DNA of 64,000 nucleotides from Antedon mediterranea. Its lineage: Eukaryota > Echinodermata > Crinoidea > Comatulida > Antedonidae. The stretch covers positions 33,623,304-33,687,303 of the forward strand of contig NC_092671.1 in the NCBI RefSeq assembly GCF_964355755.1, read 5' to 3'. The notes beneath the pieces were generated by a model that worked only from the letters and a program-made list of their open reading frames with translations, was not told the origin of the DNA and did not search any database. Both the position numbers and the translations under genes were made by a program. Below, in pieces: positions 470-63,926 of the stretch (the first letter of the stretch is position 1; each line of letters begins with the position of its first letter).

Positions 470-483
470 AGTTTACCCAACAT
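470..483 (-). CDS. Micro-exon peptide gene A, first coding exon (partial gene)
   Basis: On the minus strand ATG TTG GGT AAA CT is followed directly by a GTAAGT donor. This gives M-L-G-K plus two bases of a Leu codon. The same layout (ATG, two or three codons, AAA, CT, GTAAGT) occurs at 1149-1165, 48561-48574 and 51005-51018, each of the last three followed on its own strand by a signal-peptide exon starting with one base, so the split codon becomes CTA (Leu). No matching hydrophobic exon is visible in 1-469, so exon 2 is expected beyond the left edge. A 14-nt exon is weak evidence alone; the shared ATCATG context, AAACT end, donor and divergent position opposite gene B support it. Confidence 0.5.
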
Positions 484-1148: not shown

Positions 1149-4078
1149 ATGATGCTAAGTAAACTGTAAGTATACATTACAAAATGATACAGTACCCGGT
1201 TTAATACCGTAGTCTATGTGCGTATGTACCATGTGTACTTTTACGTACGCGAAGGTATATTATCATTCTATTGCATGGTCTAATAGTATGATAAACCCTA
1301 CCATGGATAATAGGTCTAAACTACAATTGAGCTGCTCATGCGGTGTAATATCAGTGAAACATGTTGGGAAAACATCAACATTTTACCAACATCCAATCTA
1401 GAAAAATGGATCAAGTTTATGAAACGATCAGTATTTTTAAAAATTCAGTAACCTATATATATTCCCTACTTTGACGTAATTGTAATTTATACAAAGTACA
1501 TGTGAACAACAAATAAATAAATAATAAAGTGATCAATCAATATCTGGTAACAAACTAAAACTATCTAGCTATGTCTTTTACAGAAGCTTGTCATTGTTCG
1601 TGCTTGCATTTTTGTTTTATATTGACTCGGGCTTTGGTCAAAAAATTAAAAGTAGGTAATCTTTCGGATACTTCTTTAAGTTTTGTAGTTCATATATGCG
1701 TATTCAGCATGTTTCAGAATTTTTGCTTGTTTAAAATATGCTTTTTTTGTGTTCATCTCAGATTATCACATTTTCTATTATTTTTTTCCTTTTGTGTATA
1801 CTCTTATTTTATACCATGCATATTACTCTTAAATTAAATTTCCATTTAACTAACAAATCATCATATACATATTATTTTCTACGTATAGTCCTTTCTTTAT
1901 AACATACCGGTACCGTATTATCCATTAATACAATTTAATTAATAATCCATTACCATACTATTTATTTTATTTTATATATTTATCTATTATAATCGCACAG
2001 ACCTTCAGGTACTTAAATAATGATAATTTAGATTAGGCATTTTTCAGAACCTATTAAAAAAAATACAATATCATGTTTTGCTGCACGAGAAAAGAAGAAC
2101 AAGCACGAGTTCAAAGTAATTGAACAAATGCATTTGCGTATTTTGGCAAAGGGTGGCGCCCCCAATTTGACGTATTTTGACAAAGGTATTGCGTATTTTG
2201 GCATGATGATCACCAACCCTGATCTAATTGTATATTTTGGGTTATCAATAAAACGTATAGATACGTACTAAAACAAGACACCCGAAGTTTGTACAAGAAT
2301 AAGCATTATTTTAAAGTAATGAATATTATTACAAAGAGCAGATCACTGGTCACTGGACCACCACAAACAAAAGAAAAGAAACTCATGAAGAACAAGATAA
2401 CAAGGAACGTGTGTTTTCTTACAAAGACCTTACATACGCATATAGTTGCGGAACCAAACCAAAGCAACATACATATATAGAATTGTAAAACTCAGAAATA
2501 AATATTGCAAACCAGCTGAAATGCAAAATATTTTGTTTCAGAAACTCTTCCGCCTGGAATACACAATGGATGTAAGTAACAAATATGATTAATGAAATAT
2601 TATTTTCTATAGGCTAAACACTGAAAAACAATGTAAATACGAAAAAATAGGCGGCCTAATACATACTCAATTATCATACCCAATATCAATAGAAATAAAC
2701 AAAAACACATATAAAAGACAAATAAATAGTTGCACAAAGAGATTCGACTACACAAGTATGAAAAGTATGACTGAAAAAATGAAAGTAAAGAACATGATTC
2801 TCCACAAACTCCTGGCGAACTATTCTTATTGTTTGAAAACAAGTCACACATTAATACTTTTATTTACTGCGTTTCAGATCATGACAGAATTGGTCGGGAT
2901 GTCGGTGAGTAATTAACTAAAAGTTAATAAAACCTAATTAATTGAAATAAAAAAAATATTTGTCCTTAGGATTTCTTCTGACGAAGAAATGTCGAAAATT
3001 CAAATTAAGGTATGTTGAATTTTTACTGTGATGTAACCTTGTTGCTTGCTTGCTGGAACCCTTTATGTATTTACTCTCTTTTAGATAATGACAGAATTCG
3101 TCGGGATGAAGGTGAGTAACTCATTTATGCCTAAAGTTACCAGAACTTTAATAATCGAAATACAACGGTCGGGAATGTGTTTAACTCATCACGAGTGACG
3201 GCGGTCAACCGCCGAACTGTCGCTTATCACACATTATTGGCCTGATGTTAATCGGGTTTAATTTATAAAAAGTAAAAATATAATACATAAGTAAGCATCC
3301 CATCCTGTCCACAATCAATCTGACTGAGATGGGACACGTCATACACCAATTTATCCTTATTAATCGCTACATTTTTTTTTATTTCAGAAAAGAGCAGAAT
3401 TAGATGTTTGGATGAAGGTGAGTAGTTTTTATAAGATAATGAACTGTATTCATCCAGCTTGAAGCAAATACAAACAGGACGTAGGCCTACAACAAAACAA
3501 ACTGTACAAAAAATACGTAGAACATAATTATAACCTTTGAATGGTAAAAATAATTACCAACGTAAGGCACATAACCTACGGTACTTAAAAATAATATCAT
3601 ATTCAATGTTGTACTGTTGTACTTATTCTTAAGTGCAGCAATTTAGATAATTCCTACACAATGTGTTAACCTATACTTGTGAACGTGGGGAAAATACAGC
3701 TATGTTACCACACCTTGGTATTATTTAGGTTAAGAAAGTAAGCCTACTGCGGTACTGCTAGATCCGATTTATAATAAATAATAATTGTGCATGATTGCTA
3801 CTTTATAATAACTGCTACGCACCGACGACCAAAATCCGAGTGCTTAATTCACGTTTTTGTATGGCATGGAATTTAAAATTCAATTAAAGATGAAAGCGAT
3901 GGAACAATAATTGAAGTCTACATAATATCAAACCTTTTGTATTTTTTTTTCGAGAAAAATTATTTCCAATTGTTTTTATCTTTTAACTCATGAAGATATT
4001 ATTGTTTCCATTTAACTTTTCTTAATTTCTTTTTTTTTATTTACAGGAATAGGTAGACCTCCTAAAGAATGTAAATAA
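1149..4078 (+). CDS. Micro-exon peptide gene B: seven-exon secreted precursor, complete
   Basis: Exons: 1149-1165 (MMLSK plus split L), 1584-1651 (hydrophobic core SLSLFVLAFLFYIDSG), 2542-2571 (TLPPGIHNG), 2878-2904 (HDRIGRDV), 3085-3111 (NDRIRRDE), 3388-3417 (KSRIRCLDE), 4047-4078 (IGRPPKECK, stop TAA). All have AG acceptors and GT donors, mostly GTAAGT or GTGAGT; exon 2 uses GTAGGT. Lengths sum to 231 nt, an open frame of 76 residues. Introns 2 to 6 are all phase 1, so any middle exon can be skipped without a frameshift. The product should be secreted: signal peptide over about residues 1-24, a Pro/Gly linker, then repeats bearing R-I-R-R, the R-X-R-R pattern recognised by furin-type proteases. 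In the third repeat the last Arg is Cys, and a second Cys lies at the C-terminus, so a disulfide is possible. No known family is recognised; function is unknown. Exon 2 has no in-frame Met upstream, which is why the start is placed in exon 1. Confidence 0.68.
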
Positions 4079-10040: not shown

Positions 10041-11672
10041 TTACTTGTGTGATTTTGTATGATGACTTAATAGATTAGACATTGTCACAGGGAGTTTGGT
10101 ATTAAAGAATTGAAAAATAAAGGAAGCAATTTGTGTTGTAAATAGATCATGTAGACTAAGAATATTGAGTTTTTTAAGTAAAGGTTGGGAAGGGGCGAGA
10201 TAGTGAGAGAAAGTAATAATACGGGCAGCACGTTTAATTTGTTTATTAAGTTTTTCTAAATTTGATGGGTAGTCGGCTGCCCAAATAATGTTGCAATAAA
10301 GAAGATGAGGTTGTATAAGGGTGTTATATAACAAGAGTAAGATATGTTGTGGAAAAAAGTGTCTTAATTTAAAAAGGATGCCAATTACTTTAGATATCTT
10401 TTTAGATACATACGCTTGATGACTGGTCCATCTCAAGTATTCATGTAGATAAACTCCGAGGAATAGTACTTTGGGTTTACGTTCAATAATATTATTGTTA
10501 ATGTAAATATTAAGATTAGAGAAATCAATTTGTCTTTGTTGAGTACGAAATAAAATGTAATTAGTTTTCTGTACATTAACAATAAGCTTATTTGAGATGA
10601 ACCAATCAGTCATTTTATTTAGTTCAGTGTTGACGGTGTTATACAAGACATTGATATCAGATTGAGAAAACAAAATCGTAGTATCATCAGCAAAGGATAT
10701 GACTTTCAGAGTGTCACTTGATCTAGAAAGATCATTTACATTAATTAAAAATAGTAGTGGTCCTAAAACCGACCCTTGAGGCAATCCGCAATTTACAGCC
10801 TCCACTGATGATTTAAATGAGCCTAACGCAACATACTGTTTACGGTTTACTAAATAACTTTCAAACCAGTTTAATGCAATTCCTCTAATGCCATAATTAA
10901 ATAATTTACCAAGAAGAATTTTATGATTAATGACATCAAAAGCTTTTGACAAGTCTATAAAAACGGAGAGTAAAAATTGTTTATTGTCAAGAGATGAGGT
11001 GATGTTGTTAACAAGATCCAGAATTGCATGGGATGTGGAATGGTTATGACGGAAGCCATATTGGTGAGTATAAAGAATGTTGAATTTAGTAAGGTAATCA
11101 TAGAGTCGCTGGTGCATGAGTTTTTCTAAGATCTTGGAAAAAGCACTAAGAAGGGAGATAGGCCTGTAATTTTTAACTTGGCCCTTGTCACCTTTCTTAA
11201 AGATTGGGAAAACTTTAGCTATTTTTAATAAATTTGGAAATACACCAGATGAGAATGAACAATTTATAGAGAAGGTAAGGTGGTCAATTATGTACGGCAG
11301 TATTTGTTTGATCGTACGTGAAGTGATATTATCGTCACCAGATCCTTTATTAGGATTTAAATTGTTGACAATAATTATTATTTCTTCTTTTGTAACAGGA
11401 TTTATAAAAAAGGATTGAGAAATTGGATTTGGTAAATATGAGATTGGATCAATATGAGGGTCAGGCATAGAATTATTTAAATTTGAACCAACTGTTGAAA
11501 AGTAATTATTAAATGAATCGCATATTTCTTTAGTTGATGTAATTGTTTCAAAACCGTTATTTATGAGGGATGGGAAATTGTTTCGATTTTCTGGTCTTAA
11601 TACAGAATTTATTATAGCCCAGGTCTTTTTAAGGTTACATTTTACATTTTGAAATTTTGATATATAATGCAT
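10041..11672 (-). CDS. Reverse transcriptase of LINE B
   Basis: This is an open frame of 543 codons with the ordered motifs of a non-LTR reverse transcriptase: NYRPISLLSAFSKILEK, FGFRHNHSTSHAIL-type text, FIDLSKAFDVINH with the first catalytic Asp, GLPQGSVLGPLLF, then SFADDTTI carrying the FADD catalytic pair, and a C-terminal thumb region (FLGVYLHEYLRW). It would copy its own RNA at a nicked target. The frame is intact over the polymerase, but the endonuclease frame (12134-11685) is separated from it by a stop or shift, so the element is unlikely to be active as it stands. Family placement beyond the CR1/jockey group is not possible by eye. Confidence 0.85.
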   Translation of the reverse strand: MHYISKFQNVKCNLKKTWAIINSVLRPENRNNFPSLINNGFETITSTKEICDSFNNYFSTVGSNLNNSMPDPHIDPISYLPNPISQSFFINPVTKEEIIIIVNNLNPNKGSGDDNITSRTIKQILPYIIDHLTFSINCSFSSGVFPNLLKIAKVFPIFKKGDKGQVKNYRPISLLSAFSKILEKLMHQRLYDYLTKFNILYTHQYGFRHNHSTSHAILDLVNNITSSLDNKQFLLSVFIDLSKAFDVINHKILLGKLFNYGIRGIALNWFESYLVNRKQYVALGSFKSSVEAVNCGLPQGSVLGPLLFLINVNDLSRSSDTLKVISFADDTTILFSQSDINVLYNTVNTELNKMTDWFISNKLIVNVQKTNYILFRTQQRQIDFSNLNIYINNNIIERKPKVLFLGVYLHEYLRWTSHQAYVSKKISKVIGILFKLRHFFPQHILLLLYNTLIQPHLLYCNIIWAADYPSNLEKLNKQIKRAARIITFSHYLAPSQPLLKKLNILSLHDLFTTQIASFIFQFFNTKLPVTMSNLLSHHTKSHK

Positions 11673-11684
11673 TCTTTTTGCGGT

Positions 11685-16454: not shown

Positions 16455-16713
16455 ATAGTATTACTTATGCAGTGAGCTCATACATAAACTTTTGTATTGA
16501 TAAATGCGTTCCAGTTAAAAAAGTGAAAATCTACCCTAATAACAAGCCATGGATCATGAAAGGCGTTAAATTACTGTTGTGTGAGAAACGTAGAGCTTTT
16601 AAGATGGGCGACTCTAATCGTATGAAAATATTGACTAGAGAGATTAAATCTGAAATAATGAAACAGAAGAACATTTATAGGAAAAAGTTGAACATAACTT
16701 CAGGTCTAATAAT

Positions 16714-18462: not shown

Positions 18463-18918
18463 GATAGGTATAAATATTGAAGTTGTTAATCATCAGTGCA
18501 TCATCTGTTATTTGCGGTGTTTGCCAAGTCTCTGTGACAACTGCTAAATCAATACAATTTTGAAGTAGAAGAATTTTGAAGTAAAAACATTATATTTTTG
18601 TAAGTGACGTCACACCCGTCGTAAATTTAACATTAAATGATAGTAATCTTCCTTTCTTGAAATCTGATCTAGTTTCAGACAAGACAGACAAGACAATGTA
18701 TTTTTATGACTTCTTCGATACTCATGTGATGCTAATAATATACTTTTTGTAGGTAAGGATGCAGAAAACATGAATTATTCATTAGTTGTATATATATCCG
18801 TTACCTTATTGAACATGTATTAGGTGTGACATTGCACCGGGAGTAGCAGTTGTTGTTTATATAACAATGCTACTAATACAACACTTGCCGACAGTCGCAT
18901 CCGTACTAATCCAACGCT
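18463..18918. other. Gap between LINE C and the SLC22-like gene
   Basis: No gene or repeat boundary was recognised. By position it should include the 5' flank of the transporter gene. Confidence 0.4.
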
Positions 18919-33275: not shown

Positions 33276-34273
33276 TTTATAACCATGTATATGCCTATAA
33301 AATGTTCTTTGATGCAATAATGATCAGTATAAGAAAATCTTAACCAATGATGAAGGAATTGCGAGTACAGTATATGAAAATAAAGACAGATACATTGTAG
33401 CTACAGAAGCATTTTAATTGCCAAATAAAATAACACTCTTAATAAACAACACATGGACGATCAAATAGTTACACCGCTGTAAAACCGCTATATACCGAAA
33501 CCAAAATACATAGGCCTAAACCATTGATTTTTTTTTAGGATTTTAAATGACCAAATTTGAATAGGAATTTAAAAGAACTACTGTACTCTGCTACAACCAG
33601 AGGAGACCAACATTAATGTGGTTCAGCCAGGGGTGTGTATAACTACACAGAACAAGTACTGAGAGACAATTTGTAACAGAGATTTGGTTAAACAGCGGAT
33701 GATTCAGTGTAAGTCAACTCCTTAGTAACCATCTAAAAATACAAGTGAAACATTACTAATTTATTAGATTAAAATGTACATACAATAATGATATAATAGT
33801 TAAAATTATTCACACTGTACAGTTTATGGAAATTGTGAAAATTGTATTATTGATGACAACTTGTATGCATTCTTGTATATTCTCTTCATGTTAAGATATA
33901 GTAGACACAAAAAAGATATAACCTCTTTCGATTTGCTATGACTGACGACCAACCTACGTCATGTTTATTTATTGTGATACTGGGACGTGTTTCTTCGCTT
34001 CTGACTTCGACACTTAAAATTAAGTTGATAAACCGTGCCGTGATTGGTCAATAATTTACTCGTGGTGACCTAGCGTTTCGTCCAAGTGGGAATGAAGCTT
34101 TAGTAATTTAATGATTGAGTGACGAATAATTGTGTATGTAAAAGTATTCGATATTAATTATATTTTCTTTTATCTGTAACACCAAAATATTTACTTCGAT
34201 GCCAACTTTTAAGTTGTTTTGACTATATTATTATTAATATATTGTGTTTTTTTAATATTATTCAAAGACTTAC
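33276..34273. other. Non-coding stretch downstream of the gene C cassettes
   Basis: It should hold further introns or the 3' flank of the minus-strand cassette array. No terminal exon was recognised here. Confidence 0.3.
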
Positions 34274-34312
34274 CGCTTTCCAAGTTTGTCTTTATTGGGG
34301 GACCACGAGGGC
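34274..34312 (-). CDS. Micro-exon: Gly/Pro-rich cassette (39 nt)
   Basis: Minus strand: TATCAG acceptor, 39 nt, GTAAGT donor, phase 1 at both ends. Joined to the preceding cassette (34437-34463) by a 124-base intron, the split codon is GGC and the text is G then PRGPPIKTNLES. It resembles one and a half collagen triplets but is too short to call collagen. It fits the Pro-rich linker class of this gene family. Confidence 0.45.
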
Positions 34313-34436: not shown

Positions 34437-34463
34437 CTTCTTCCCTACGGATTCTGTCATGAT
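34437..34463 (-). CDS. RIRR micro-exon cassette (27 nt)
   Basis: Minus strand: TTTCAG, 27 nt, donor GTGATT (weaker than its relatives). Phase 1 reading HDRIRREE, with the R-I-R-R basic site followed by acidic residues. It is nearest in sequence to the gene B exons (HDRIGRDV, NDRIRRDE). Confidence 0.6.
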
Positions 34464-35512: not shown

Positions 35513-35853
35513 AAAGGGAAAATCATTAATGTAATTGGAACATTTACGGTACGGATGCGTAGAACAAGTCCAACAAGAGAAGATTCGTAACTCTAATATA
35601 ATTTCCATATGGTAAAAACGACATTTAAATTAATTGTAAGTACACCGGTGCTGGTGCTGTACGCCTTCAATGCTGTACGAGTTTTGATTAACCAATCCAT
35701 CACGTCGTACTTGGTCAAGCATACGATCAGCTCCCGCTTGGACGCACAAAAGTATTCAAGTTGCTTGTGATTGGTAAACTTACTTAATAGGGTGATTTTA
35801 CCACATGGAAAGAATGCTCAACTGCTTAAAAAAGATTCTTTATGCCTACGTAC

Positions 35854-35883
35854 CATCATCCCGACGGATCCTGCGAGTGAGAG
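35854..35883 (-). CDS. RIRR micro-exon cassette, diverged (30 nt)
   Basis: Minus strand: CTAGATAG acceptor, 30 nt in phase 1 reading LTRRIRRDD, donor GTACGT. The R-I-R-R core and acidic tail are kept while the first half differs from other cassettes. The acceptor lacks a strong pyrimidine tract, so use is doubtful. Confidence 0.4.
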
Positions 35884-39226: not shown

Positions 39227-39256
39227 CTTCATCCCGACGAATTCTGCTACCATGCT
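39227..39256 (-). CDS. RIRR micro-exon cassette (30 nt)
   Basis: Minus strand: CATTTCAG, 30 nt, GTGAGT; phase 1 reading HGSRIRRDE. It belongs to tandem unit A of the gene C array. LINE D begins about 27 bases downstream, in what would be the following intron. Confidence 0.65.
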
Positions 39257-39763: not shown

Positions 39764-42700
39764 TCACTTTTTCAGTTTGTATTTTTCTTTGTTCAACCTA
39801 CCAATTCGGTTAACTCCCTTTTGACCTCCTCTTCCTTGGAATATCTCTGTAAAGAATTGAAAAAGACGTTGCCTAAATTGAAACATTTGACAATATACAT
39901 TGACTTTATTGTGTTTTCCTATGTATTTGTCACATTTCTACATAGCTATGTCGATAATTATTTATATTATTTAGGAGTAGGTTTGCAAATTTATTACATT
40001 TTAACGCTGTTCTTTTTGACTGTTTTATTGCAATGTTTTATTCCTACTCACCCCTATCTCGACGAATTCTGCTACCATGTTCTTCTGAAATGCAATAAAA
40101 CAAGAATACACACGATCATGTATACTTCACTGTCATTTTTTAAACATTCTGTTATGGTGCCAAATAATGGCCTATAATTAGTTTGTTCCTTTATTATGTT
40201 ATCCACTTTTAAATAGTTACTGAAGTGAGGTTTTCTATTTTCTTTTATAATAATTATGCTATAATTAAATTGTTTGGTCTTTATGTAGTCTGTTGCTGAT
40301 GAAAAAATAACGTTGCATCAAGATGATCGTCATCACTGGTATGACCTGAAATGCAGTACATTATAGAAGTTAAAGGCAGCCATGTTGTGCAACATGGCGA
40401 TTGTTCTGGAAAAGGAGGTTATGTGAGATAGGTTTTTAGGGTTAGGGGTTTAGTTATTAAAGCTAAGGCCGTGAAGATAAGCTTATGGCCAATATATACT
40501 GTATAGTATAAGGTTTTGTACAGATTATTAAGGAGGAGGAAGTTAGTTGGTGCATTTAATTATTAATATAACGCATTGCAACATAACGCTAACTTTTATA
40601 CGTTATTTAATAATAACACATTATTTATAGATTATTAGTTCCAAGTCAATTTAAAATATGGATCGAGCAAATACTGAAATGAATTCACTTTTTTCAGTGT
40701 GTATTGCTCTTTCTCCCACCTACCAATTCCGCTACCTATTCGACCACCTCTTCCTCCAACGGGGAATATCTTTGTAAAGGTAAATTGAAAAACCGTTACT
40801 TAATTTGAAACATTTGACAATATACATAATCTTCATTCTGTATTTGTCATATTTCTACATAGCTATGTTGATAATTGTGTATACTATTTAGGAGTAGGTT
40901 TGCAAATTTATTACATTTTAACACTGTTCTTTTTTTACTGTTATTTTGCAATGTTTCATTCCTACTCACCTTCATCCCGACGAATTTTGCTACCATGCTC
41001 TGAAATGCAATAAAGAATAATAAATGGTCATATATAGTTCACCGTATTGCCCTGGCCCTGGTCTAGTAGGTTCTGTATAATAGAAGGTATATGATAATAA
41101 CTTAATTAGCGTTATTTAAAAAAAAAACAGAATATAAATTGCATTATAGATATATTTTTGAGACATGTGAGCCCGATAAACAAATACAAGGAAACAAGTA
41201 TTGGTTGTAAAGTTATTTAATATGAATGGCAAGTCATCGTTGCAGCATGCACATAAAAGGAAAACACAAAAAAGGAACATTGAGAGTCTCTGAAAGGGCC
41301 AAATTACATGTCTCAAAATCGTAATTGAAAACAAAATAGAGAGGGAGTGGAGGGAGGGAAGTGAAAATTATTTTACTTAGACAAAAACTGGCGTGGTAAT
41401 CTTTTGACAGCGTGAGGTGAAGAGGATGAGATGCTTACGCTGTCAAAAGATGATTGCGAGGGCGCCCCGCAATCACGTGATTTTGACACATGTGAGCCCG
41501 ATAAACAAATACAAGGAAACAAGTATTGGTTGTAAAGTTATTTAATATGAATGGCAAGTCATCGTTGCAGCATGCACATAAAAGGAAAACATAACAAAGG
41601 AGCATTGGGATGCTCTGAAAGGGCCAACACAGTTGGCAACGAAGGGGCCAACGAAGCAGCCCAAATTAAGTGCAGGTAGAACCGATGACAAGCCATTCCG
41701 ATGTTGGTGCAACATATGTTGACACCCAGAACGTATAGAAACTATATACATAGTCTACCTGGAGCAACATGTGTTGACTCCCGTACCCGGTTGACCATTA
41801 GAATCTGATAGGTGGAGCAACCAAATATTGACATCGAAAAACGTATAGAAACACCTACATTAGTCTACCTGGAGCAACATGTGTTGACTCCAGTACACAT
41901 TTAAACATTTTAATTAGGTAGGCAGTGTAACCAAATGTTGACACCGAAAAATGTAAAGAAACAATCTCCATTAGCCTGCCTTAGTACGCGTTTGAGAATT
42001 GAGTTTAATAAACGGTGCAACCATGTTGACACCGAAAACATATAAATAACTTATTAGTCTACCTGGAGCAACGTGTTGACTCCGATTGAACATATGATTA
42101 TAATTGGCGGTGCAACCTATGCTGTCACCGAAAGAAAACAAAAATGAAAAAAGTAAAACGATATACAGAAAAAATAAGTATCAAACTTTGTTTAAGCTTG
42201 ACGCTTAATGCCCAGTCATGCTTAGGAAATATGCCAACCAGCCAGCACCCATGTTTACAATGCTGTATTTGACAAAGTTATGTAGTTCGACCATCGTCCA
42301 AAAGTCATAATGTCTTGGTGAGAGTGTCCAAGTGATTTGATGAAGGTGTTAAACTGTGTATGTTTCAGACTAGCATGGCGAGCTAATTGTTTAAGCGACG
42401 AGGAAATCATTTTCCTATTTACTGGTGTTCCATTTTCAAGCAGGAAGAACGGGCCTGCCTTCGGTGGTCGCATCCTGACCTTGACGACACTGGACATATA
42501 TTGGGCTTCCGGATTTTTTGGTGCAAGACGAAAGGAGGTGAGGAACGCTTAGAGTGTTTGAAAGAGTTGAAGTTTATTTGCACTTTAGTGGCATGTACTG
42601 TGATATCAGTTAGCATTAGTGTGTGTTCTGCGGCCTTGGAGACTACTGCTTCACTGGCTCTGAGGCATGCGAAGTAACATATTATGAACAAGGCTCTGTA

Positions 42701-45700: not shown

Positions 45701-48574
45701 AGCTCGATGAATTTTTTGACAAGGTAGGGGTTTGAGGAAGAGAGCTGCCGGTAGGTTCGGCTTACCGACATTAATCTCAACCACAGAAGTTACCAGGGTT
45801 TTGACGATATGCCTCATGTCCTTTAATTCTTTATTTATGTCAAGTTCAGGTACTGGCACGGTTATTTTTTGGTGCCGTATTTTTTACCTCTTGTTAGTTC
45901 TTTTCCGTCCTGACATGGTGTATCTGTAAGAAAATCATATAATGAATGCTGTACTTAAGAGCATGAGAGATAAAACACCGCCGTATGTGGGGGTAGTTAA
46001 TGAACCAGCATAAGTAATTATGTGGTGGTAGTAGGGGAACCAGCATGAGTCATATAATGAATGCTGTACTTAAGAGCATGAGTGATAAAACACCGCCGTA
46101 TGTGGGGGTAGTTTATGAACCAGCATAAGTCATTATGTGGTGGTAGTAGGGGAACTAGCATGAGTCATATAATTAATGCTGTACTTAGGAGCATGAGTGA
46201 TAAAACACCGCCGTATGTGGGGGTAGTTAATGAACTAGCATAAGTAATTATGTGGTGGTAGTATGGGAACCAGCATGAGTCATATAATGAATGATGTACT
46301 TAAGAGCATGAGTGATAAAACACCGCCGCATGTGGGGGTAGTTTATGAACCAGCATAAGTAATTATGTGGTGGTAGTAGGGGAACCAGCATGAGTCATAT
46401 AATGAATGCTGTACTTAGGAGCATGAGTGATAAAACACCGCGGTATGTTGGGGTAGTTAATGAACTAGCATAAGTAATTATGTGGTGGTAGTATAGGAAC
46501 CAGCATGAGTCATAATAAATGCTGTACTTAAGAGGATGAGTGATAAAACACCGGCGTATGTCGGCGTATGAACCAGCATAAGTCAATTATGTGGTGGTAG
46601 TATGGGAACCAGCATGAGTCATAATGAATGCTGTACTTGGGAAACCAGCATGAGTCATAATGATGCTGTACTTGGGAAACCAGCATGAGTCTTAATAATT
46701 ATAATGAATGATGTACTTGGGGAACCAGCATGAGTCATAAGATGAATGCTATACTAACTATATAAACCATTCAGATGTGTGCAAAATATTTGCCAGTTTA
46801 GCGTAGCATCAAGAAAGAAAAACAACAAGTTATTATTTATTTCTTTTGGATGTAAAACAATGGGAAAATAATAAATGGTGTCAACAGTGTATTGCCTGGC
46901 ATTTTGTTTTGTTTATTCTGTTTAATTATGTATTTATTTTCCTCTAAAATCCGGTTCCGGATTGTCCACAGTGACTGCAGTAGTAGTAACAGATAATAAG
47001 ATTGTTGTTATTTAATGGCATAAGTTAGCATAAGAGGCTCCGTGCATTAAAGCAGACCTTACTTTTTAACTAGGTCATTCGATCCGAGGTCGATTATCAA
47101 AATATCTGGCTTGAATGTTTCCACTTGATTTACAAAATTAGTTAGGTCGTTTATCTTTAGGCCGGGCACCCCCCAAAGAACATATTATCATAGTGATGAC
47201 TGATTCGGAAGTCAGGCAAAGGTCGATGTGAACCAAGTATGGAGTCGGACGAATTACCCAAGCCATGATGGAAAGCGAGGCTTTCGCTCAAACCGGAAAC
47301 AAATGAGTTGAGCCTAGGCAACCAGACAACATAATTACAGTAAAGTATGAAAAATCGAACAAAATGGGGGTAAGATAAGGTGTTAGATAAATTCCAGTCA
47401 AAGTATATTGTGTGAGTACACACAGCCTATAAGTGTATGAGGATAAAATGAACTGGTAAATGTAAAAGTGAAAATTATTTTACATAGCCAAAAACTGGCG
47501 TGGTAATCTGTTGACAGCGTGAGGTGAAGAGGATGAGATGCTCACGCTGTCAAAAGATGATTGCGAGGGCGCCCCGCAATCACGTGATATTAGCTCAAAT
47601 GCTTCATTCATCTTCATTTTATAATACTACATTTTACGTATTTCAAAACATTGAGGAATACCACTTACTTTCTATATTATTACCTAAGGCAGGCTCAGCA
47701 TAGAAAAACAACAGTACCGGTAATAAAAATATAACAACCGACAATTGGAAGCTTCTGTAAAATAAAGAAAATAGACTACTTGGTAATTGGGTGGGATGGT
47801 CGCGGTTTGGAAGAGGTTCCGACATAGCCATTCTATACACAGGAAGGCAACTAAACAACACCAGATTTGGTTCCGATTACCTCACTTACTCCCGGAATGT
47901 GTAAAATTGCATTGATTATCTAAACATACAGTAGTAGTTATTTTGTTGTGGAGAAACCAGAATTAAATCTCTCTTGAGCTTATTTGTTTTCCCGGCTTTC
48001 TATTTATCTAATACTAAGAATAATAAGAATCTCTAATAACTTATCAAGTGTGAAATAAAACGAATGAATAAACAGTATGTCTAAATATGCATGCGATTGC
48101 CTACATAAGCAAATTGAACAAAATGTTAATTCAATTTTGCAAATAACACCAAACGAGCGATTGAATATACGATAATGTTTTATATAATAAATAATATAAT
48201 AATAAATTAAATGGCAAATTGATGATGTTGGTATTAGTGGCTGAAACTCAATGGAGATACAAACTAAAATAAGCGAAAAGCTAAATCAAAACGTAAAAAA
48301 AGTACAATTAGCAGATAAAGTAATATATTTTATGTATATAATATAATAAATATTTATATAATAAAGTAATATATTTATATAGTACCTGCTTTTATAACAG
48401 TAGTCCATTACAAATAGAAGATCTAGATTAGAAACCTCTACGCTGGCAATCCAATCAAGTCCTAAATCAAAATCAAGTGGTCATGACATCGAATAGTTTC
48501 TTGAACTGTTAATTTACCTAAAAATACTTGAAGCAGATTACGTAATCGAAAATTACTTACAGTTTACGTGTCAT
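39764..48574 (-). CDS. Micro-exon peptide gene C: signal peptide, linker, two KIRR/RIRR exons, basic tail
   Basis: Exons on the minus strand: 48574-48561 (MTRK plus split L); 47754-47684 (hydrophobic core QLSVVIFLLPVLLFFYA); 41072-41043 (PTRPGPGQY); 40999-40970 (HGSKIRRDE); 40084-40052 (EHGSRIRRDR); 39846-39764 (IFQGRGGQKGVNRIGRL... ending YKLKK, stop TGA). Lengths 14, 71, 30, 30, 33 and 83 nt sum to 261, an open frame of 86 residues. Introns 2 to 5 are phase 1. The predicted secreted precursor would be cut by furin-type proteases after KIRR/RIRR, leaving a Gly-rich, strongly basic C-terminal piece of about 29 residues. Oddities: intron 3 would be only 43 bases, so exons 3 and 4 may not be used together; intron 2 holds a 6.4 kb DIRS-order element; unit A exons downstream offer alternatives. 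The function is unknown; an immune or antimicrobial role is a guess from charge, secretion and variability. Confidence 0.6.
40732..40769 (-). CDS. Alternative terminal micro-exon of unit C (acceptor changed)
   Basis: The unit B terminal exon uses a CAG acceptor. Here the same position reads CAA, so the next AG, two bases later, is the only close choice. That shifts the frame and gives D then IPRWRKRWSNR and stop, instead of the Gly-rich tail text (IFPVGGRGGRIG in the old frame). The result is a short Arg/Trp-rich end. Whether it is spliced is unknown; it may simply be a dead exon. Confidence 0.35.
41700..42135. repeat. Degenerate tandem repeat in the DIRS element 3' region
   Basis: About four units of 100-120 bases share GGTGCAACCA..TGTTGACACC, GAAAAACGTATAGAAAC and TAGTCTACCTGGAGCAACAT followed by TGTTGACTCC. 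Confidence 0.7.
42255..43065 (-). pseudogene. Tyrosine recombinase of the DIRS-order element
   Basis: The minus strand from about 43065 encodes an N-terminal core-binding part (KWHHFNQFRKSLSLP, LYVSKLTKNALAISTIRNYL), then SFVHRVSFMEDPTANPAV, FACLRASEAV with the first catalytic Arg, and after a frameshift near 42497 KVRMRPPKAGPFFLLENG and LGHSHQDIMTFGRW. The region where family members carry the H-x-x-R box (after QFNT) is shortened to FIKS, so the second catalytic pair is missing. The enzyme would integrate the circular DNA copy of the element. Inactive as it stands. Confidence 0.8.
43102..44000 (-). pseudogene. Reverse transcriptase/RNase H remnant of the DIRS-order element
   Basis: The minus strand shows FPQGGGSSCQIFNKFSDGV (polymerase, near 43940), TTISFLGIELDLQKM and RLPSEIIQLR (connection region), then in 43419-43102 FHCDNLADVYVLNKKSS and FTARHIPGKQNRICDALSRF, the RNase H end typical of DIRS and LTR elements. 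Stops and frameshifts break every part. Confidence 0.75.
44044..44224. mobile_element. PIF/Harbinger-type MITE inside the DIRS element
   Basis: 181 bases that fold along almost their whole length. The ends AGGGTCTTTCACACCTG and CAGGTGTGAAAGACCCT are inverted copies, and a TTA target duplication flanks them (44041-44043, 44225-44227). TTA duplication with such ends fits PIF/Harbinger. It is younger than the DIRS element it interrupts. Confidence 0.8.
44820..45930 (-). repeat. Large direct duplication with gag-like frames
   Basis: About 430 bases starting GCGCATGAGGTATTTAATAT occur twice (about 44815-45250 and 45494-45930), 679 bases apart, about 98% alike by eye. Each minus-strand copy encodes MPVPELDINKELKDMRHIVE and, after a shift, FIELHNLLDFNSAAE. 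By position these are remnants of the first ORF (gag-like) of the DIRS-order element. No zinc knuckle is visible. Confidence 0.75.
45941..46740. repeat. 115-base tandem repeat (about six units plus fragments)
   Basis: Units containing AATGAATGCTGTACTTAAGA, TGATAAAACACCGCCGTATG, GTTAATGAACCAGCATAAGT and GTGGTGGTAGTAGGGGAACC start at 45941, 46056, 46171, 46286 and 46401, spaced exactly 115 bases, then break up into shorter fragments. It lies inside the DIRS-order element. Confidence 0.9.
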
Positions 48575-50228: not shown

Positions 50229-50404
50229 ATTGTAGCACGCAACTTAATGGCTGTTGGCCTTGTTTAGTTAAACTTCATAAAAATGCATAAAAACAATAAT
50301 CAAGTGCAACTAAGCGAAATAAAAGCAAAACCTACACGTTCATAAACAAACGATTCATATAATATTACTGTATTGCGAGTAGGCCTATGTATAATTATAT
50401 TCAG

Positions 50405-50431
50405 ATCATGGCAGAATCGGGATGAAGGCGA
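50405..50431 (+). CDS. Orphan micro-exon, altered RIRR cassette (27 nt)
   Basis: ATTCAG, 27 nt, GTAAGT. Relative to other cassettes a deletion removed bases of the RIRR codons and the ancestral donor became GGCGAG, but a GTAAGT a few bases on restores a 27-nt, phase-1 exon (HGRIGMKA). No first exon lies upstream on this strand before gene C, so it has no obvious gene. Confidence 0.4.
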
Positions 50432-50644: not shown

Positions 50645-50671
50645 ACCGTGAGAGAATCCGTCGGCAAACAT
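50645..50671 (+). CDS. Orphan RIRR micro-exon (27 nt)
   Basis: GTTTCAG, 27 nt, GTGAGT; phase 1 reading RERIRRQT. It is most like the gene D exon at 63900-63926 (YDRIRRQA). It lies upstream of the gene D first exon, so it is either a relic of a lost copy or part of a gene with an unseen start. Confidence 0.5.
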
Positions 50672-51004: not shown

Positions 51005-54000
51005 ATGTCAACTAAACTGTAAGTATATACCATATAATGTTGTGTTACCTCCTAGTGACATAACATTCAATATCACTATTATTAGTACAATAATATACTT
51101 TCCATATTGATTTCTGTGAGATTTACTGATATTGTTATTGCACCATATTTCGGTGGCATAGTATACAAATAATAAATGTTTATGAGAGTAATGGTACAAA
51201 TGATGGCATGAGGTGAATGATGAAAGATTATATTTCACCAAGGCAAAGCCAAGTTGATATATAATCTTTCATCATTCACCAAACACCATTATTTGTACCA
51301 TTACACGAATATAAACATTCACTGTTTTTGTTTTATTGTTTTTCAAATAAAAGGTTATACAAGGCCAACATTTGATTCACATTGATTAAAGCAGTAACAT
51401 TTAATTTGTGGTCATATTGTATTTATATGGATTTTATAAACACACCTACTGTATTGTTAATTATGTATCGTATTAACAAACGACCAAATAATCCTAGGCC
51501 TAGCAAGGCTAAAACGCATAGGCATAGCCTAATACTAACTAGGCTGAAAGGTAGCAATACCAAATACAAAACTTTGGCAACTGGAACTCATCGTCTTATA
51601 GAGATGTTCACATTAATTAATGAAAATCCTACAAACGATCTAAAGCTAATTTAAATGCCTTTTTGATCTAAATTAGTACACATATATCTCTCCGAAAAAT
51701 GTACTTTCATCGCGAAACCAGTCATAACAGTCAATCTTCGCGGCGAAAGTACAGAACAGGTGGCGCTGTTGTATTTCAAAAGCAATAGTATGATAAAAAT
51801 ATTTTCAAAAGCGAAAAGGTATTTTTTTTAGTACACAATAAAAAGGACTATTAAACGATAGTTCAATAATGCGTACCATTGCACGTCATGTGACCACAAT
51901 CATCCAATCAAATGACAGGAATTTATATAGGTGTTATATAATATATTCTAGTTCTGGTTTTGAAAACCAAAAGTAACACAACTCCGTTGTAGATACGGAG
52001 CAATCAGTTAAATATCTGCAATGTTGTCAGTAAGCAGTTATATATTGAATTAGAAACTACTATTGCCACGAGGTATTGATCTATGAAATGAGGTTGAAGA
52101 TAGAAATTTACTTTCAGGGATAAGACCACTTAACACAACAATAAAGAACAATGTACACCTGGTGGTACCAATCGAAATTCATACATCAATGCCTTTTTAC
52201 ACAAATATTTTCTCAGATAAATAAATCACGCTAAACTTTTATTAATTTACACTTAAGTATTGCCAATTTTCGCGCGAAGTGAAAGCATCAGCTTTTACGT
52301 TTGCGTAAAAAATCATTATCTACACATAACAAACAAAATTAATGCTATAGAAAATATGGCTTTAAAAAAGAGAATAGCTACTTCCACCTGATGTCTGCAA
52401 CTGAGCTGTTTTCAATCGCAAAATGGGATTTGCAAGATGGAAATGCGTTGGCCTATCCCGACGCTTTTGACTTTCCAACAAATTCTTCTTGTGGGAAAAC
52501 AGGCTTTTATAGAAATCCTCAAAGAGTGATCTACACAATATTTCATTTTTATTACAGAGGCTCGTTGGTTTTGGCATTTTTAGTAGTGTTTGTGCAATGT
52601 GCAAGTAAGTAATTTATTTTTTTTAAATCGTTTTATTTTACCTTGTTTCTGTATTAGAGTAATCAAAATATTTCTTAAATTCAAGTATTTTATTTAACTT
52701 CTAATTTCCCAATACCCATAATATCTAGAGGTATAACTATATACTGCTATGACTGTGTCTTTTATTAAGAATAGATTTATTATTATACAATTATACATAA
52801 TTATAATATAAACAATAAATAAATTAATACACGTTATGCCAGGATTTACAACATCATCTATATATACTAGTATATACATTTACGTAAGGGCAAAATTCGG
52901 TAAATCGCACGTTACTTCTTGAATTTTTACTCGATGGTATATAAAGTTGGTTCGACTTTTGGTACTGCTTTTAACCACCTAATGTAATACTATTTAATAA
53001 TTAAATTGAGTTAGATAATTAATTATTGACAATTAAAACGAATTTAGGTTCAACAATTTGCCCCAAATAGGGGTGTTTTCCAATCGTGATATACACTGTC
53101 TAATGATGTCCTTCTTGAAAAATACCCTTACACAATCATACGAGAATGCTTCGTATTTACCTATATTCTTCTACGATAATTGTTTGTAACTAGATAGTAC
53201 GCTCGCTTCGCTCGCGTACCATCTAGGTCGTGCCCACAGATGGTTCTCGAATACATAATTATTTCAGCTTTAAAAAACTGACGATTTCAAATGTACGTAC
53301 AATAATACATGTCGTTTACAGGAACGAATAAATAGACACTGATTTATGTACTCAACTAAAATTAGCACACTGGGAATTACTTCCGAAAGAGAAACTTGTC
53401 ACAAAATGAGACCAATTGTTTAAGTCAAATGTAAACAAACTTAATTTGTGTTATGTATGTAACATTAGGGTTGAGGGATGGGGAAGAGGATAGGTGCAAA
53501 GAGGAACAATTTTTAAATATATTCTTTATCCATTTAGTAACGAAATATTAGGCCTAATTGTTTTCATGTTTTACAAATAATATACCAAAACACAGTAAAA
53601 CATTGCGATGTAATACTTTGTTGAAACTATCACCGTCCTAGTCAATTGAAGTAGTACAGTACATGTAACGATACATCACTACGACGTGTATTTTATATAA
53701 TGTAAAACAATTTGTGAAAACCACATCTATTCGGGGAAAATCATGAATTCGATTTAATCGTCAATAAATATTAAATTATCTAACTCAACTTAATTAGTAG
53801 GCCTAATGGTTTTCAATTGTTTCTTTGAGCCAATTCATACTTAAGTTGGTTCCTACCCTACCCACCAAAGTTGTTCTGCGTTTAAGGCATGTGATGCACA
53901 GTAGGCCTATCCTCTACTGGCTTTACAACGCTACTCATGCCAGTGAGGGAAGGGTGATGACGTGGGTGGTTTAACTGCAATAATAAAGATTTGTACATAA

Positions 54001-57000
54001 TATACGGCGACTGAAAACGCTAGCTCATTATCCGTTAAAATAAAATTTATATCCAACCTCTGCAGCACAGATTGAAAAAAAAAATGGATCGAATTTCTGT
54101 TATGAGTATACAGTACTTACCTTTACGACGCCTGAGGAATAGACACCTGTGGAACAGAGATTGGAATATTCCATTCTTCGCAAATCAATACATTTGTATA
54201 AACGTATATTAAATCTATCAAAATAGTATTTTTGTAAGAAAATTGGCCTGTCTTCAACATTATGATGCTGTACTCGAGCTGTTCAACCAGTTTTCAGCCA
54301 TTAAAAACAATTATCGTAGGAGGAGATAGGAAAATGCGAAGCATCCTCGTATATTGTCTGCGGGTATTTTTCAAGACGGACATCCATTAGACAGTGTATA
54401 CCACGATCGAAAAACACCCCTATTTGTGGCAAATCGTTGAACCTAAATTCGTTTTAATCGTCAATAACTAATTATCGAACTCAATTTAATTAGTAAATAG
54501 GGTTACATCAGGTGGTTAAAATCAGTACCGAAAGTACGAACCAACTTTATATACCATCGAGTAAACATTCTAGAAATAACGCGCGATTTACCGAATTTTG
54601 CCCTTACGTAAATTTATATATAGATAACTGAATATCGGTTGAACAACTCGAGTACAACATCATAATCTTACATGTTTTTCCTCTTTCCCATCCCTCAACA
54701 ATAATGTTATATATAAAACACAATTTCCAGGGTGCTAATTTTAGTTGACTACATAAATCATCGTGTCTATATTATTTATTCGTTTCTGTAAACGAAAATG
54801 TATTATAGCCCTGCGGTACGTACAAAAAAAAAAACACATTCTTTTACGCTGGAATTACCATCTGTGGGCACGACCAAAGTAAGCGTACCATCTAGTTAAG
54901 TTAAAGTATGACAGTATAAAATGAGGATATTATAATTGCAAAAGCCTCCTTCACAAAAAGGCTATTCTAAATGATCCATACATAATATTTTAATTTACTA
55001 CATTTCAGAAAATACAAATAATTATTTTCAAAGTATTCATATTTTGCTGTGCTGTTTTTTTTTCAGAAGCTCCTTCTCCACCTCATCCACCTGCTGTATG
55101 GAATTATGGAACGACTGAAAGTAAGTCAGATGGTAGTAATAATTAGCATAATCTATTTATAAATGTACGTAAGGGCAAAATTTGGTAAATTGCGCGTTAC
55201 TCCTAAAATGTTTACTCGATGGTATATAAAGTTGGTTCGTACTTTCGGTACTGATTTTAACCACCTGATGTAACACTGTTTACTAATTAAATTGAGTTAA
55301 ATAATTAGTTATTGACATTTTAAACGAATTTAGGTTCAACGGTTTGCCACAAATAGGGGTGTTTTCCGATCGTGGTATACACGGTCTAATGGATGTTCAT
55401 CTTGAAAAATACCCGCACACAATAATAAGAGGATGTTTCGCATTTTCCTATCTCCTTCTACGATAATTGCTTTTAATAGCTGAAAACCAGTTGAACAGCT
55501 CGAGTATAGATTCATAATGTTGCCGATTTTCTTTAAAAAATACTATTTTGATATATTTAATATACGTTTATACAAATGTATTAATTTACGATGAATGGAA
55601 CATTCCAATCTCTGTTACACAAGTGTCTATTCCATCAGGCCTCGTAAAGGAAAGTACACCCATAACAGAAATTCGATCCATTTTTTTTCAATCTGTTTTA
55701 CATCTATATATAAATTTACGTAAGGGCAAAATTCGGTAAATCGCGCCTTACTTCTAGAATTTTTACTCGATGGTATATAAAGTTGGTTCGTACTTTCGGT
55801 ACTGATTTTAACCACCTGATGTAACCCTGTTTACTAATTAAATTAAGTTAGATAATTAGTTATTGACGATTAAAACGAATTTAGGTTCAACGATTTGCCC
55901 CAAATAGGGGTGTTTTCCGATCGTGGTATACACTGTCTAATGGATGTCCATCTTGAAAAATACCCGCCACAAAAATGCGAGGAGGCTTCGCATTTTCCTA
56001 TCTCCTCCTACGATAATTGTTTTTAATAGCTGAAAACCGGTTGAACAGTTCGAGTACAGCATCATAATGTTGAAGACAGGCCGATTTTCTTTAAAAAATA
56101 CTATTTTGATACATTTAATATACGTTTTTACAAATGTATTGATTTGTGATGAATGGAACATTCCAAATTATTTGGTTTAACCATACAGGTATAAATTTAG
56201 ATTTATGGGCCCCCTTGGAGAATAAACATAAATAGTATTGCAATGCTGTACAATACTGTTAAGGTATTAACCACTTTTGATCGCAATTTGAATCGCAAAT
56301 TTCTTACTGTGAGTGTTGGTACTGTTAGATGTAATATAAAAATATATACAAATAAACTTTATTACTGTGAGTGTGGGTAGGCCCTACTGTTAGATTATAA
56401 ACATATAATATACAAATAAATAAACGTTATTACTGACAGTTGCTTCTCAACGTTTGTATTAATTAATAATTTAAAAATATATAAACGTCGTAGTGGTGTA
56501 TCGTTACATGTACTTTACTATTTCAATCGACTATGACAGTGAGAGTTTTAACAAAGTACTGTATTAAATCGTAAATGTTTTACTGTATTTAGTGGTATAT
56601 TATTTATAGGCCTATAAAACATGAAAAACAATATTTCGTTACTGAGTGAATAAGAATATATTTTAAAATGTTTCCTCTTTGTACCTATCTTCTTCCCCCA
56701 TCCCTCAACCCTTAATGTTACATACAAAACACAAATTGGGTTTGTTTAAATGAGTCCAAATAAAAAAATTTGACTCATTTTGTTTCTCTCTCGGAAGTAA
56801 TTCTCAGGGTGCTAATTTTGGTTGACTACATAAATCATTGTGTATATTTATTCGTTTCTGTAAACGACAATGTATTATAGTCCTGCGGTACGTACATTTG
56901 AAATCTCCATTTTCTTCTCGCTGGAAATACTGTGTATTCGAGAACCATCTGTGGGCACGACCTAGATGGTACGCGAGAGAAGCGAGCGTGCCATCTAGTT

Positions 57001-63000: not shown

Positions 63001-63926
63001 GAATTACTACTTAGTTTAATGTCTTTCCTAGCTGTCGATTAGCCTCGACTCGACACATTTTGTGTGAAGAAGAGTGCGCGAAGGCAATCGCGTAAATTGA
63101 CTTAGAATCCTAGGCCTACTGTAGAAAGTATCGTATCGCAGTTGTGTAATCGCTTCTTGTTGCTATACGCTTGGGTGCACACGGAACAACAAATTTAACT
63201 GATGAATTATTCATGTTTATTTTGTCACGTTTCATGAGGGGGTCCCCAACTTATGTACGAAAAAAAAAATCGCGGCCCGGCCGCCTACTATACTAGCTAG
63301 TACTACGAGTACGTACCCTACTTTACTTGACTTTCAGCCAAATTATTTAAGGCCTCTAATTGTTATAATCAACAATAATAATAAATATAAATAATAATAA
63401 TAATTACCTTTTGACATACGGACATTTTCTTTCCACAAATGGGCGGTGTAACGGTTGCAAACTGTTTCGTTCCACCAGTCTAAAGACACAATTGGGTTAC
63501 GAGGTCGCCTAGCCGCAATCAAAACTACGAAGTTTTTTGTTACGTCTACCATGTTTATCGTCGGGACATGTAACACATGTGAGACATCGAGAGTGGAAAT
63601 TCCTGAGTTACAGTGCGCACGCTCAGTATACTTAGGTCAAACACAGACTTCCTGTTCAAGAATGGCCGCTTGGGTAATAAAGATGAAATTTAACACGACC
63701 ACCCAAGAAGTATTTTTAGCAGAAACGGGGTACTAAAAAATACGGTATAAAAAATACCGTATTTTATACCGTATTTTTATACCGTATTTTGAGCAGTTGC
63801 AGCAGAAACAGGCCCTTACACATACAAAATAAAATTAATTCTTACACCACATAAGATATAACAAGATAATAATCATATTTAAAAACAAATCTCTTTCAGA
63901 TTATGACAGAATTCGTCGACAAGCAC
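51005..63926 (+). CDS. Micro-exon peptide gene D, 5' part (runs off the window)
   Basis: Exons: 51005-51018 (MSTK plus split L), 52558-52604 (GSLVLAFLVVFVQCA), 55067-55120 (APSPPHPPAVWNYGTTE), 63900-63926 (YDRIRRQA), with GTAAGT donors throughout. Joined, they stay open: a 20-residue signal peptide ending near VQCA, a Pro-rich linker with one Trp, then an R-I-R-R site. Further cassettes and the terminal exon should lie beyond 64000. The hydrophobic exon also has an in-frame ATG at 52391, but the TATTACAG acceptor at its start, matching those at 1577-1583 and 47755-47761, and the missing ATG in gene B favour the separate first exon. Intron 2 holds two nested Helitrons; intron 3 holds two more and the Harbinger element. 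Function unknown. Confidence 0.6.
51174..51319. mobile_element. Palindromic MITE in intron 1 of gene D
   Basis: AAATGTTTATGAGAGTAATG...GGTGAATGATGAAAGATTATAT on the left is mirrored on the right by ATAATCTTTCATCATTCACC...CATTACACGAATATAAACATT. About 146 bases; short centre; no coding. Confidence 0.7.
52857..54895 (+). mobile_element. Non-autonomous Helitron, outer copy 1 (holds an inverted Helitron)
   Basis: Starts TCTATATATAC after an A and ends ..GCGTACCATCTAG before a T. Host text on each side of the nested element joins as GTTTGTAA|TAACTGAATA, matching AATTGTTTTTAATAGCTGAA in other copies. No Rep/Hel protein. Confidence 0.75.
53190..54624 (-). mobile_element. Non-autonomous Helitron nested in outer copy 1, opposite strand
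   Basis: Read on the minus strand it starts TCTATATATAAATTTACG and ends with a hairpin (stem GTACGC-type, loop GAGCGAAGCGAG-type) a few bases before CTAG. It sits between A and T with no target duplication. 1435 bases. The ends match the other three copies. Confidence 0.8.
55152..57508 (+). mobile_element. Non-autonomous Helitron, outer copy 2 (3' end lost)
   Basis: Starts TCTATTTATAAATGTACGTA after an A. Its body is interrupted by another Helitron at 55703-56998 and continues to about 57508 (GAGAACCATTTGTGGGCACG), where the terminal hairpin and CTAG are missing. The Harbinger element begins 23 bases later. Confidence 0.7.
55703..56998 (+). mobile_element. Non-autonomous Helitron nested in outer copy 2
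   Basis: Starts TCTATATATAAATTTACG after an A and ends GGTACGC-loop-GCGTGCCATCTAG before a T: 5' TC, 3' hairpin and CTAG, insertion at A|T without duplication, the hallmarks of Helitrons. 1296 bases, non-coding. Confidence 0.8.
57545..57760. repeat. Subterminal AATACCGTATT palindromes, left end
   Basis: At least eight copies of AAATACCGTAT/ATACGGTATTT lie within about 215 bases of the left end; a matching cluster is at 63735-63790. They are likely the binding sites of the transposase or its Myb-like partner. Confidence 0.7.
57841..60051 (+). CDS. Harbinger Myb/SANT-like DNA-binding protein with STP repeats
   Basis: Exons 57841-58180, 58377-58448, 58683-58823 and 59060-60051, all joined in phase 1, total 1545 nt (514 residues). 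The N-terminal 100 residues form a trihelix/SANT-like unit (MWTEEVTVFTINLWGE, LSPKQVNTKLKTLRKQY, PHYEVLDRILG). The middle is acidic (EEEQQHEDGPHVEDVDEEND). The last exon starts with a basic QPCRKRKKTK segment, a charged coiled-coil-like part (MAKQDREEEERYMRH), a Gln/His-rich part, and then about 30 hexapeptides of ARTSTP/HYTSTP/APTSTP. In this superfamily the Myb-like partner binds transposon ends and brings the transposase into the nucleus. The hexapeptide tail is unusual and probably arose by expansion of an 18-base unit. Confidence 0.8.
59425..60015 (+). repeat. 18-base tandem repeat encoding x-x-T-S-T-P
   Basis: Units CCAGCTCGCACTAGTACA, CCACATTACACTAGTACA and CCAGCTCCCACTAGTACA alternate about 32 times, in frame with the Myb-like protein. 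A higher-order period of several units is visible. Long frames in the other phases and on the minus strand are shadows of this array. Confidence 0.95.
60678..63576 (-). CDS. Harbinger (HARBI1-like) DDE transposase, catalytic Glu replaced
   Basis: Minus-strand exons 63576-63408, 62021-61595, 61415-61310 and 61091-60678; phases fit and total 1116 nt (371 residues), a normal length. Exon 2 carries a helix-turn-helix (IGNRFGVHRSTVSRSIKQ) and the first catalytic Asp (QCAGAIDGSHIPI, D163). Exon 3 carries the second (VGWPGKVHDARVF, D213). Exon 4 has the family block NYKLSKARMVVKRAFGLLKG, where family members have Glu in VERAFG; here it is Lys (K289, codon AAG, one transition from GAG). The enzyme should therefore be unable to cut DNA, although the frame is open. 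Intron 1 contains the second MULE-like element. Start at MLHVPTINMVDV is a choice; a later Met is also possible. Confidence 0.85.
62364..63273. mobile_element. Non-autonomous MULE-like element, copy 2
   Basis: 910 bases with the same long inverted ends as 12828-13708 and a perfect 9-base duplication GGCCCGGCC on both sides (62355-62363, 63274-63282). The interior is about 95% like copy 1 by eye, with small indels. It lies in intron 1 of the Harbinger transposase. Confidence 0.85.

Follow-up and report, generated by a model that had tools for sequence, protein, structure and literature searches.

A predicted family of micro-exon genes for secreted proteins with exon-wise R-I-R-R repeats

A series of very short, splice-flanked pieces near the start of a 64,000-nucleotide stretch of Antedon mediterranea DNA (the whole stretch is called the window below) raised the question whether these pieces form one gene and, if so, what kind of product this gene would encode. 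A first-pass annotation had proposed that seven exons, once joined, give a single open 76-residue frame. The coordinates of the seven exons and their junctions were found exactly as claimed, and all six introns are of the GT-AG type. The exon lengths are 17, 68, 30, 27, 27, 30 and 32 nt, in this order; the join of 231 nt is open, and its other two frames are closed. The joined product is MMLSKLSLSLFVLAFLFYIDSGFGQKIKKTLPPGIHNGYHDRIGRDVDNDRIRRDEEKSRIRCLDEGIGRPPKECK (76 residues, followed by the stop). The conceptual translation bore out the predicted layout, in which a signal peptide is followed by a Pro/Gly linker, by three repeats of the R-I-R-R type and by a stop. The exons of this gene, designated gene A, are the following:

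1149..1165 (+): exon 1, coding start MMLSK(L), ends in phase 2, carries the signature common to genes B, C and D
1584..1651 (+): exon 2, signal peptide, phase 2 to 1
2542..2571 (+): exon 3, Pro/Gly linker (K)TLPPGIHNG, phase 1-1
2878..2904 (+): exon 4, repeat HDRIGRDV, phase 1-1
3085..3111 (+): exon 5, repeat NDRIRRDE, phase 1-1
3388..3417 (+): exon 6, repeat KSRIRCLDE, phase 1-1
4047..4078 (+): exon 7, (G)IGRPPKECK and stop

Exon 1 thus ends in phase 2 and exon 2 in phase 1, and they are followed by four internal exons of phase 1-1. Translation may instead start at the second ATG (1152), with which the starts of the other genes align. The splice sites were scored with a generic matrix. The acceptor of exon 3 had a poor score (-0.4), the donors of exons 1 and 2 both scored 2.2, and among the exons of gene A only exons 5 and 6 were above the cut-off. 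A splice-site scan of the gene A interval revealed no further phase-1 exon above this cut-off.

The same exon series, with the same phases, had been claimed to recur in two further genes, C and D, given without coordinates and taken here to be the two genes so named below; it was indeed found in gene C (a model of 117 residues) and in the first four exons of gene D. A screen for short ATG exons with a hydrophobic exon downstream had retrieved the starts of A, C and D along with a few other pairs, and the exon pairs of these three genes have identical phases. The sequence ATGN5TAAACT/GTAAGTA (the stroke marks the exon end) opens all four genes, with four exact copies in the window versus 0.0002 expected. 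This pattern was derived from A, C and D, and the copy at 463-483 on the minus strand played no part in defining it; this fourth exact copy was taken as the start of a further gene, gene B:

470..483 (-): gene B exon 1, MLGK(L), with the exon-1 signature

The remainder of gene B presumably lies beyond the start of the window. An exon 2 was not found in the remaining 469 nt, where nine acceptors were tried and none gave an open exon with a donor. The window contains parts of at least four related predicted micro-exon genes, which are arranged in two head-to-head pairs, i.e., B(-)/A(+) with 665 bp between the ATGs and C(-)/D(+) with 2430 bp between the ATGs. With high probability the gene family itself is real.

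The common plan comprises a first exon of 14 nt (17 nt in A, counted from the first ATG), a signal-peptide exon, a Pro-rich linker exon and a variable number of phase 1-1 exons, mostly of 27-33 nt, with one R-I-R-R-type repeat each. A short basic tail that contains Pro was observed in A and C only. The N-terminal starts of A, C and D are hydrophobic and signal-peptide-like, as judged by composition. The internal exons after the signal exon were of phase 1-1 throughout, in gene A 4 of 4 with 27-30 nt and in gene C 7 of 7 with 27-45 nt, the latter being less independent because phase 1 had been demanded in the gene C search. An explanation of the repeats as a transposon was rejected, since they occur in the same order after signal exons and on both strands. 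As a separate observation, the pentamer CTGAT starts 18-39 nt upstream of the aligned ATG in all four genes (ATGs at 483 (-), 1152 (+), 48574 (-) and 51005 (+)); it is a possible common promoter or 5′-UTR element and is given as a lead only.

Gene C was modelled with ten exons, which join into an open chain of 117 residues:

48561..48574 (-): exon 1, MTRK(L)
47669..47754 (-): exon 2, signal peptide
41043..41072 (-): Pro/Gly linker exon, PTRPGPGQY, weak donor GTGAAC
40970..40999 (-): repeat exon C1, HGSKIRRDE
40052..40084 (-): repeat exon C2, EHGSRIRRDR
39802..39846 (-): Gly-rich exon, IFQGRGGQKGVNRI
39227..39256 (-): repeat exon C3, HGSRIRRDE
34437..34463 (-): repeat exon C4, HDRIRREE, weak donor GTGATT
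34274..34312 (-): exon (G)PRGPPIKTNLES, resembles gene A exon 7 by eye
34154..34173 (-): proposed terminal exon, DKRKYN and stop, chosen by eye and least certain

The tail of gene C contains GPRGPP, which by eye is like GIGRPP of gene A. Two further pieces of gene C were discarded. A duplicate of the Gly-rich exon (40724-40771, minus strand, 48 nt) could not be accepted as a used exon, because it has AA in place of the acceptor AG and use of the following AG would shift the frame, and a 30-nt candidate in intron 1 (47890-47919, minus strand) is closed in the required phase. The introns of gene C also contain open reading frames of another kind. At about 36600-39200 (-) endonuclease-like and reverse-transcriptase-like frames were judged by eye to be remains of a non-LTR retrotransposon. 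In intron 2, at 42419-43219 (-), there is a frame resembling an integrase N-terminus, with weak Pfam matches below the cut-off, which could belong to a DIRS-type element.

Gene D and the stray repeat exons of the window are less complete:

51005..51018 (+): gene D exon 1, MSTK(L)
52558..52604 (+): gene D exon 2, signal peptide
55067..55120 (+): gene D Pro-rich linker exon, APSPPHPPAVWNYGTTE
63900..63926 (+): repeat exon YDRIRRQA, given to gene D across a gap of 8.8 kb
50645..50671 (+): orphan repeat exon RERIRRQT, placed between exon 1 of C and exon 1 of D, a relic or unassigned
50405..50427 (+): decayed repeat exon of 23 nt, frame broken, donor GC, profile match 50389-50444 with E 2e-8
35847..35874 (-): decayed repeat exon in gene C, limits given by the profile match, E 0.009

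The YDRIRRQA exon is 74 bases from the end of the window, and gene D runs past this end; a single repeat is in view. The orphan exon at 50645-50671 is part of a stretch of 110 bp that is 77% identical to the surroundings of gene A exon 4. The presumed intron of gene D contains two DDE_Tnp_4 transposase pieces on the minus strand, at 60678-61094 (above the Pfam cut-off) and at 61591-62055 (just below it), as well as a Myb/SANT-like open reading frame at 57772-58206 (+), a combination typical of Harbinger elements.

It had been argued that a chance origin of gene A is unlikely, and the shuffling experiments, the frame test, the recurrence in C and D and the exon-1 signature all agreed with this. 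Four phase-1 micro-exon candidates within 1 kb are present on the real plus strand, and they were obtained in none of 100 dinucleotide shuffles of the window; the best shuffle had three candidates in 1 kb on one strand (1 of 100). The shuffles gave about 4.6 phase-1 candidates per strand, and short pieces between AG and GT are common. After base-shuffling of the gene A exons, the frame stayed open in 0.17% of 20000 trials. When the window was scanned for short AG..GT pieces with free length modulo three, 25 rows were obtained, nine of which are family exons, all with lengths that are multiples of three, while the other 16 rows (including gene D exon 2 and rows with a common donor) were distributed 6/5/5 by length modulo three; there is some circularity in this result, as the scan that first revealed most of the family exons had itself demanded multiples of three. 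The signal-exon pairs taken alone are moderately unusual, as three were observed and at least three occurred in 3 of 100 shuffles. When three mismatches were allowed, the exon-1 pattern had five matches in the window, and this number was also reached in 9 of 100 shuffles, so that the exon-1 argument rests on the exact copies.

The repeat exons allowed to compare the coding parts with their surroundings. A DNA profile detected eleven repeat exons in the window, nine with both splice sites and the two decayed ones (E < 0.01); as the profile had been built from these nine, including their splice sites, their recovery follows by construction. In comparisons between genes, the mean identity is 69% for the repeat exons, as against 43% for the upstream and 32% for the downstream flanking introns (21 pairs drawn from 8 of the 9 exons, an ungapped comparison that lowers the intron values). 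For the identity and codon tests exon A6, which has an inserted codon, and the two decayed exons were left out, and pairs within a gene were excluded. The four R-I-R-R codons had a pN/pS of 0.19, with 22 synonymous and 10 nonsynonymous differences over non-independent pairs. For all eight repeat codons the value was 1.26 between genes and 0.57 within gene C alone. The RIRR codons change mostly silently, and the adjacent codons diverge. Counted by eye as separate events, the changes in the core are five silent and two replacing ones (binomial P 0.028), and the silent events may be as few as three if shared changes were inherited. Because the core was selected for being conserved, its low pN is partly produced by construction and is suggestive only. 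In all eight repeat exons tested (A4-A6, C1-C4, D4) an in-frame stop follows 5-14 nt past the exon end.

On the evidence of the DNA, exon duplication (A4/A5; C1/C2/C3) and exon decay are visible in the window. The repeat exons C1 and C3 differ at one of 30 bases. In the duplication of C1 and C2, identity is 80% for the repeat exons and 60% for the Gly-rich exons, with gaps counted as mismatches; for this reason the intron value is given twice, as 74% over all columns and as 84% over ungapped columns. As the 80% of the repeat exon lies between the two intron values, and as the Gly-rich exons reach only 60%, the recent duplicates C1 and C2 offer no clear evidence of additional exon constraint.

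What could such genes be good for? Furin cleaves at the consensus R-X-[K/R]-R. Since RIRR fits this consensus, a secreted precursor with exon-wise repeats that is cut after RIRR by furin-type convertases is the favoured reading, and as a whole it is given an even chance; the furin cleavage step taken separately is proposed somewhat more tentatively. According to this proposal, the product would enter the secretory pathway as a small, basic and probably unfolded precursor, and furin-type convertases would cut after RIRR and thereby generate short peptides. The released peptides would start with Asp or Glu in A and C, and with Gln in D and in the orphan exon. The last product of gene A would be DEEKSRIRCLDEGIGRPPKECK, and its two Cys residues could close a ring. 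Diversity would be generated by tandem duplication and decay of exons, possibly also by skipping. Because the internal exons are symmetric, any subset of them keeps the frame and the exon number is free to vary; 16 in-frame exon subsets are possible in A and 128 in C (two to the power of four and seven, respectively). A has one RXRR site, C has three, and the part of D that is in view has one.

Alternatively, the genes could be real and the protein could stay uncut, with the RIRR repeats forming a multivalent cationic surface for binding or with antimicrobial activity; gain, loss and skipping of micro-exons would then tune the number of repeats, somewhat as has been proposed for the products of schistosome micro-exon genes (MEGs) at surfaces that face the host. 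This alternative is possible, but it is regarded as less probable than the cut precursor. It gains from the fact that R-X-[K/R]-R is absent from two of the three repeats of A (RIGR, RIRC), which are nevertheless in frame, and from one of the four repeats of C (the first, KIRR), and also from the composition of the products, since A and C without their signal peptides are very hydrophilic and basic, with pI values of 9.4 and 10.2 at a guessed signal-peptide cut site. In addition, small symmetric exons occur together with signal peptides and a transposon-rich neighbourhood in schistosome MEGs, and the introns of C and D likewise contain transposon-like open reading frames. However, the feature that was kept across most repeats is R-X-R-R and not a general basic composition, and the repeats are also rich in Asp and Glu, unlike typical membrane-active peptides.

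A further reading, which overlaps with the others and is rather unlikely, accepts the genes as real and lets the chain differ from the models, by extra or alternative exons, by another C terminus or by transcripts that mix neighbouring genes. The end of C and the middle of D are uncertain, and the symmetric internal exons keep many chains open, but the chain of gene A is compact and complete, and no other phase-1 exon in its interval exceeded the cut-off, which among the exons of A itself was exceeded by exons 5 and 6 only. Still less probable is a decaying cluster of remnants, in which A would perhaps be the sole intact gene or none would be expressed. The broken repeat exons at 35847-35874 and 50405-50427, the orphan exon at 50645, the acceptor lost in C, and the C1/C2 exons, which are conserved no better than their introns, would be expected of such a cluster. 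It is at odds with gene A, which is intact in its six introns and its frame, with the open frame of C across ten exons, with exons that have outlasted introns between the genes, and with the near-identity of C1 and C3. An assembly of splice-like signals in AT-rich DNA by chance is extremely improbable, because the frequency of short AG..GT pieces and the few shuffles with three signal-exon pairs are outweighed by the lack of any shuffle with four candidates in 1 kb, the four exact exon-1 signatures and the homology across the genes.

The remainder of the window contains various other elements. The piece at 18916-19227 (+) is a first coding piece of a transporter of the SLC22 type (organic cation/carnitine), with PDB matches to OCTN2, OCT1 and OCT2 (best E 1.5e-7). 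Its assignment as a defensin, for which a Pfam match to Defensin_3 above the cut-off (E 2e-4) and a PDB match to a defensin-like peptide (E 0.0011), both over a Cys-rich stretch, could be quoted, was taken as a chance result. Remains of non-LTR retrotransposons lie at 10041-11684 (-) and 16681-18264 (+), both with a reverse transcriptase according to Pfam. A repeat of about 0.9 kb is present in two copies (12820-13715 and 62356-63280), which are 93% identical and about 49 kb apart, and the ends of this repeat also form inverted matches with one another. A tandem array with a period of 18/54 bp at 59424-60019 is open in several frames, one of which is rich in Thr, Ser and Pro. The palindrome AGGCCT, which is common in echinoderm DNA, is 6.5 times more frequent than predicted from the base composition.

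Database comparisons of the family were largely negative. Pfam yielded no family for gene A at E values up to 1 and none for gene C at E values up to 0.01, and Rfam at gathering scores and a tRNA scan of the whole window gave no match on the family. Five weak PDB matches of the gene C product, to Cas9 fragments (best E 0.31), were treated as chance matches. The repeat-exon pattern was absent from viral contigs, a collection that is unsuited to an animal family. In a narrow search of the open-licence literature, no echinoderm or deuterostome micro-exon family of this plan was found, and sea cucumber, sea urchin and five repeat peptide strings gave no match. It is a speculative and rather doubtful generalization that the genes represent an undescribed animal family, perhaps of deuterostomes, in which symmetric micro-exon cassettes carry, in most cases, one convertase site each and splicing would set the number of cuts and the short peptides obtained. 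Gene finders readily overlook such genes, as almost no exon looks coding on its own. Together, the exon-1 signature and the repeat-exon profile can serve directly as queries against the whole source genome and the genomes of related species.

Several known systems share parts of this gene plan. Schistosome MEGs are described as genes with very small, symmetric exons, mostly multiples of three, with signal peptides, fast change and an enrichment for transposon insertions (PMC10526429; PMC4350168). The present family is like them in encoding predicted secreted proteins by tiny symmetric exons, in its signal peptides and in its transposon-rich surroundings. In contrast, the motifs FL-hydrophobic2-FX6W and FxxLFL(I/R)(V/D/E)Fxx(D/E), which follow the signal peptide in MEGs (PMC10526429), have no match in A, in C or in the part of D that is in view. 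The repeats here are Arg-Ile-Arg-Arg, and the likeness seen is one of plan.

The bicycle genes of aphids are fast-evolving, have many small internal exons, almost all of phase 2, and about 17 exons on average, and can be recognized by their gene structure (PMC9168663). The common feature is the large number of small internal exons that are nearly all in one phase, and the difference is that the internal phase after the signal exon is 1 in A, C and D and that A has 7 and C has 10 exons. In the apidaecin precursor each repeat is encoded by a duplicated exon. Nasonin consists of defensin-like repeats, each from a duplicated exon, that are devoid of protease sites (PMC2853521). One repeat per duplicated exon is thus shared with nasonin and apidaecin; unlike here, the nasonin repeats are defensin-like and have no protease sites, and the likeness seen is again one of plan.

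A further comparable layout is that of the skin peptide precursors of pipid frogs. According to sections of one paper, the magainin and caerulein genes of X. laevis have tandem-repeated peptide-coding exons, Silurana precursors have RXXR, KR or RR sites around the peptide, and the pipid genes are clustered in both orientations, some of them decayed (PMC3731216); a signal-coding export exon appears, in these sections, only in a title cited there (PMC3731216). Tandem repeat exons, basic cut sites, clustered genes in two orientations and some decay are therefore features that the present family would have in common with the magainin and caerulein precursors. The duplicated pipid exons are nearly identical and encode the active peptide, whereas in the present family it is the basic site that is retained, with divergent residues around it, and the two were compared by plan only. 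Taken together, the family would work like known micro-exon and tandem-exon systems in its plan, and homology to them is not claimed. If it is expressed, it would represent a further case of secreted proteins encoded in same-phase micro-exons, alongside those of flukes, aphids and frogs, and it would suggest why this plan recurs, namely that symmetric exons let the number of repeats change with the frame unbroken.
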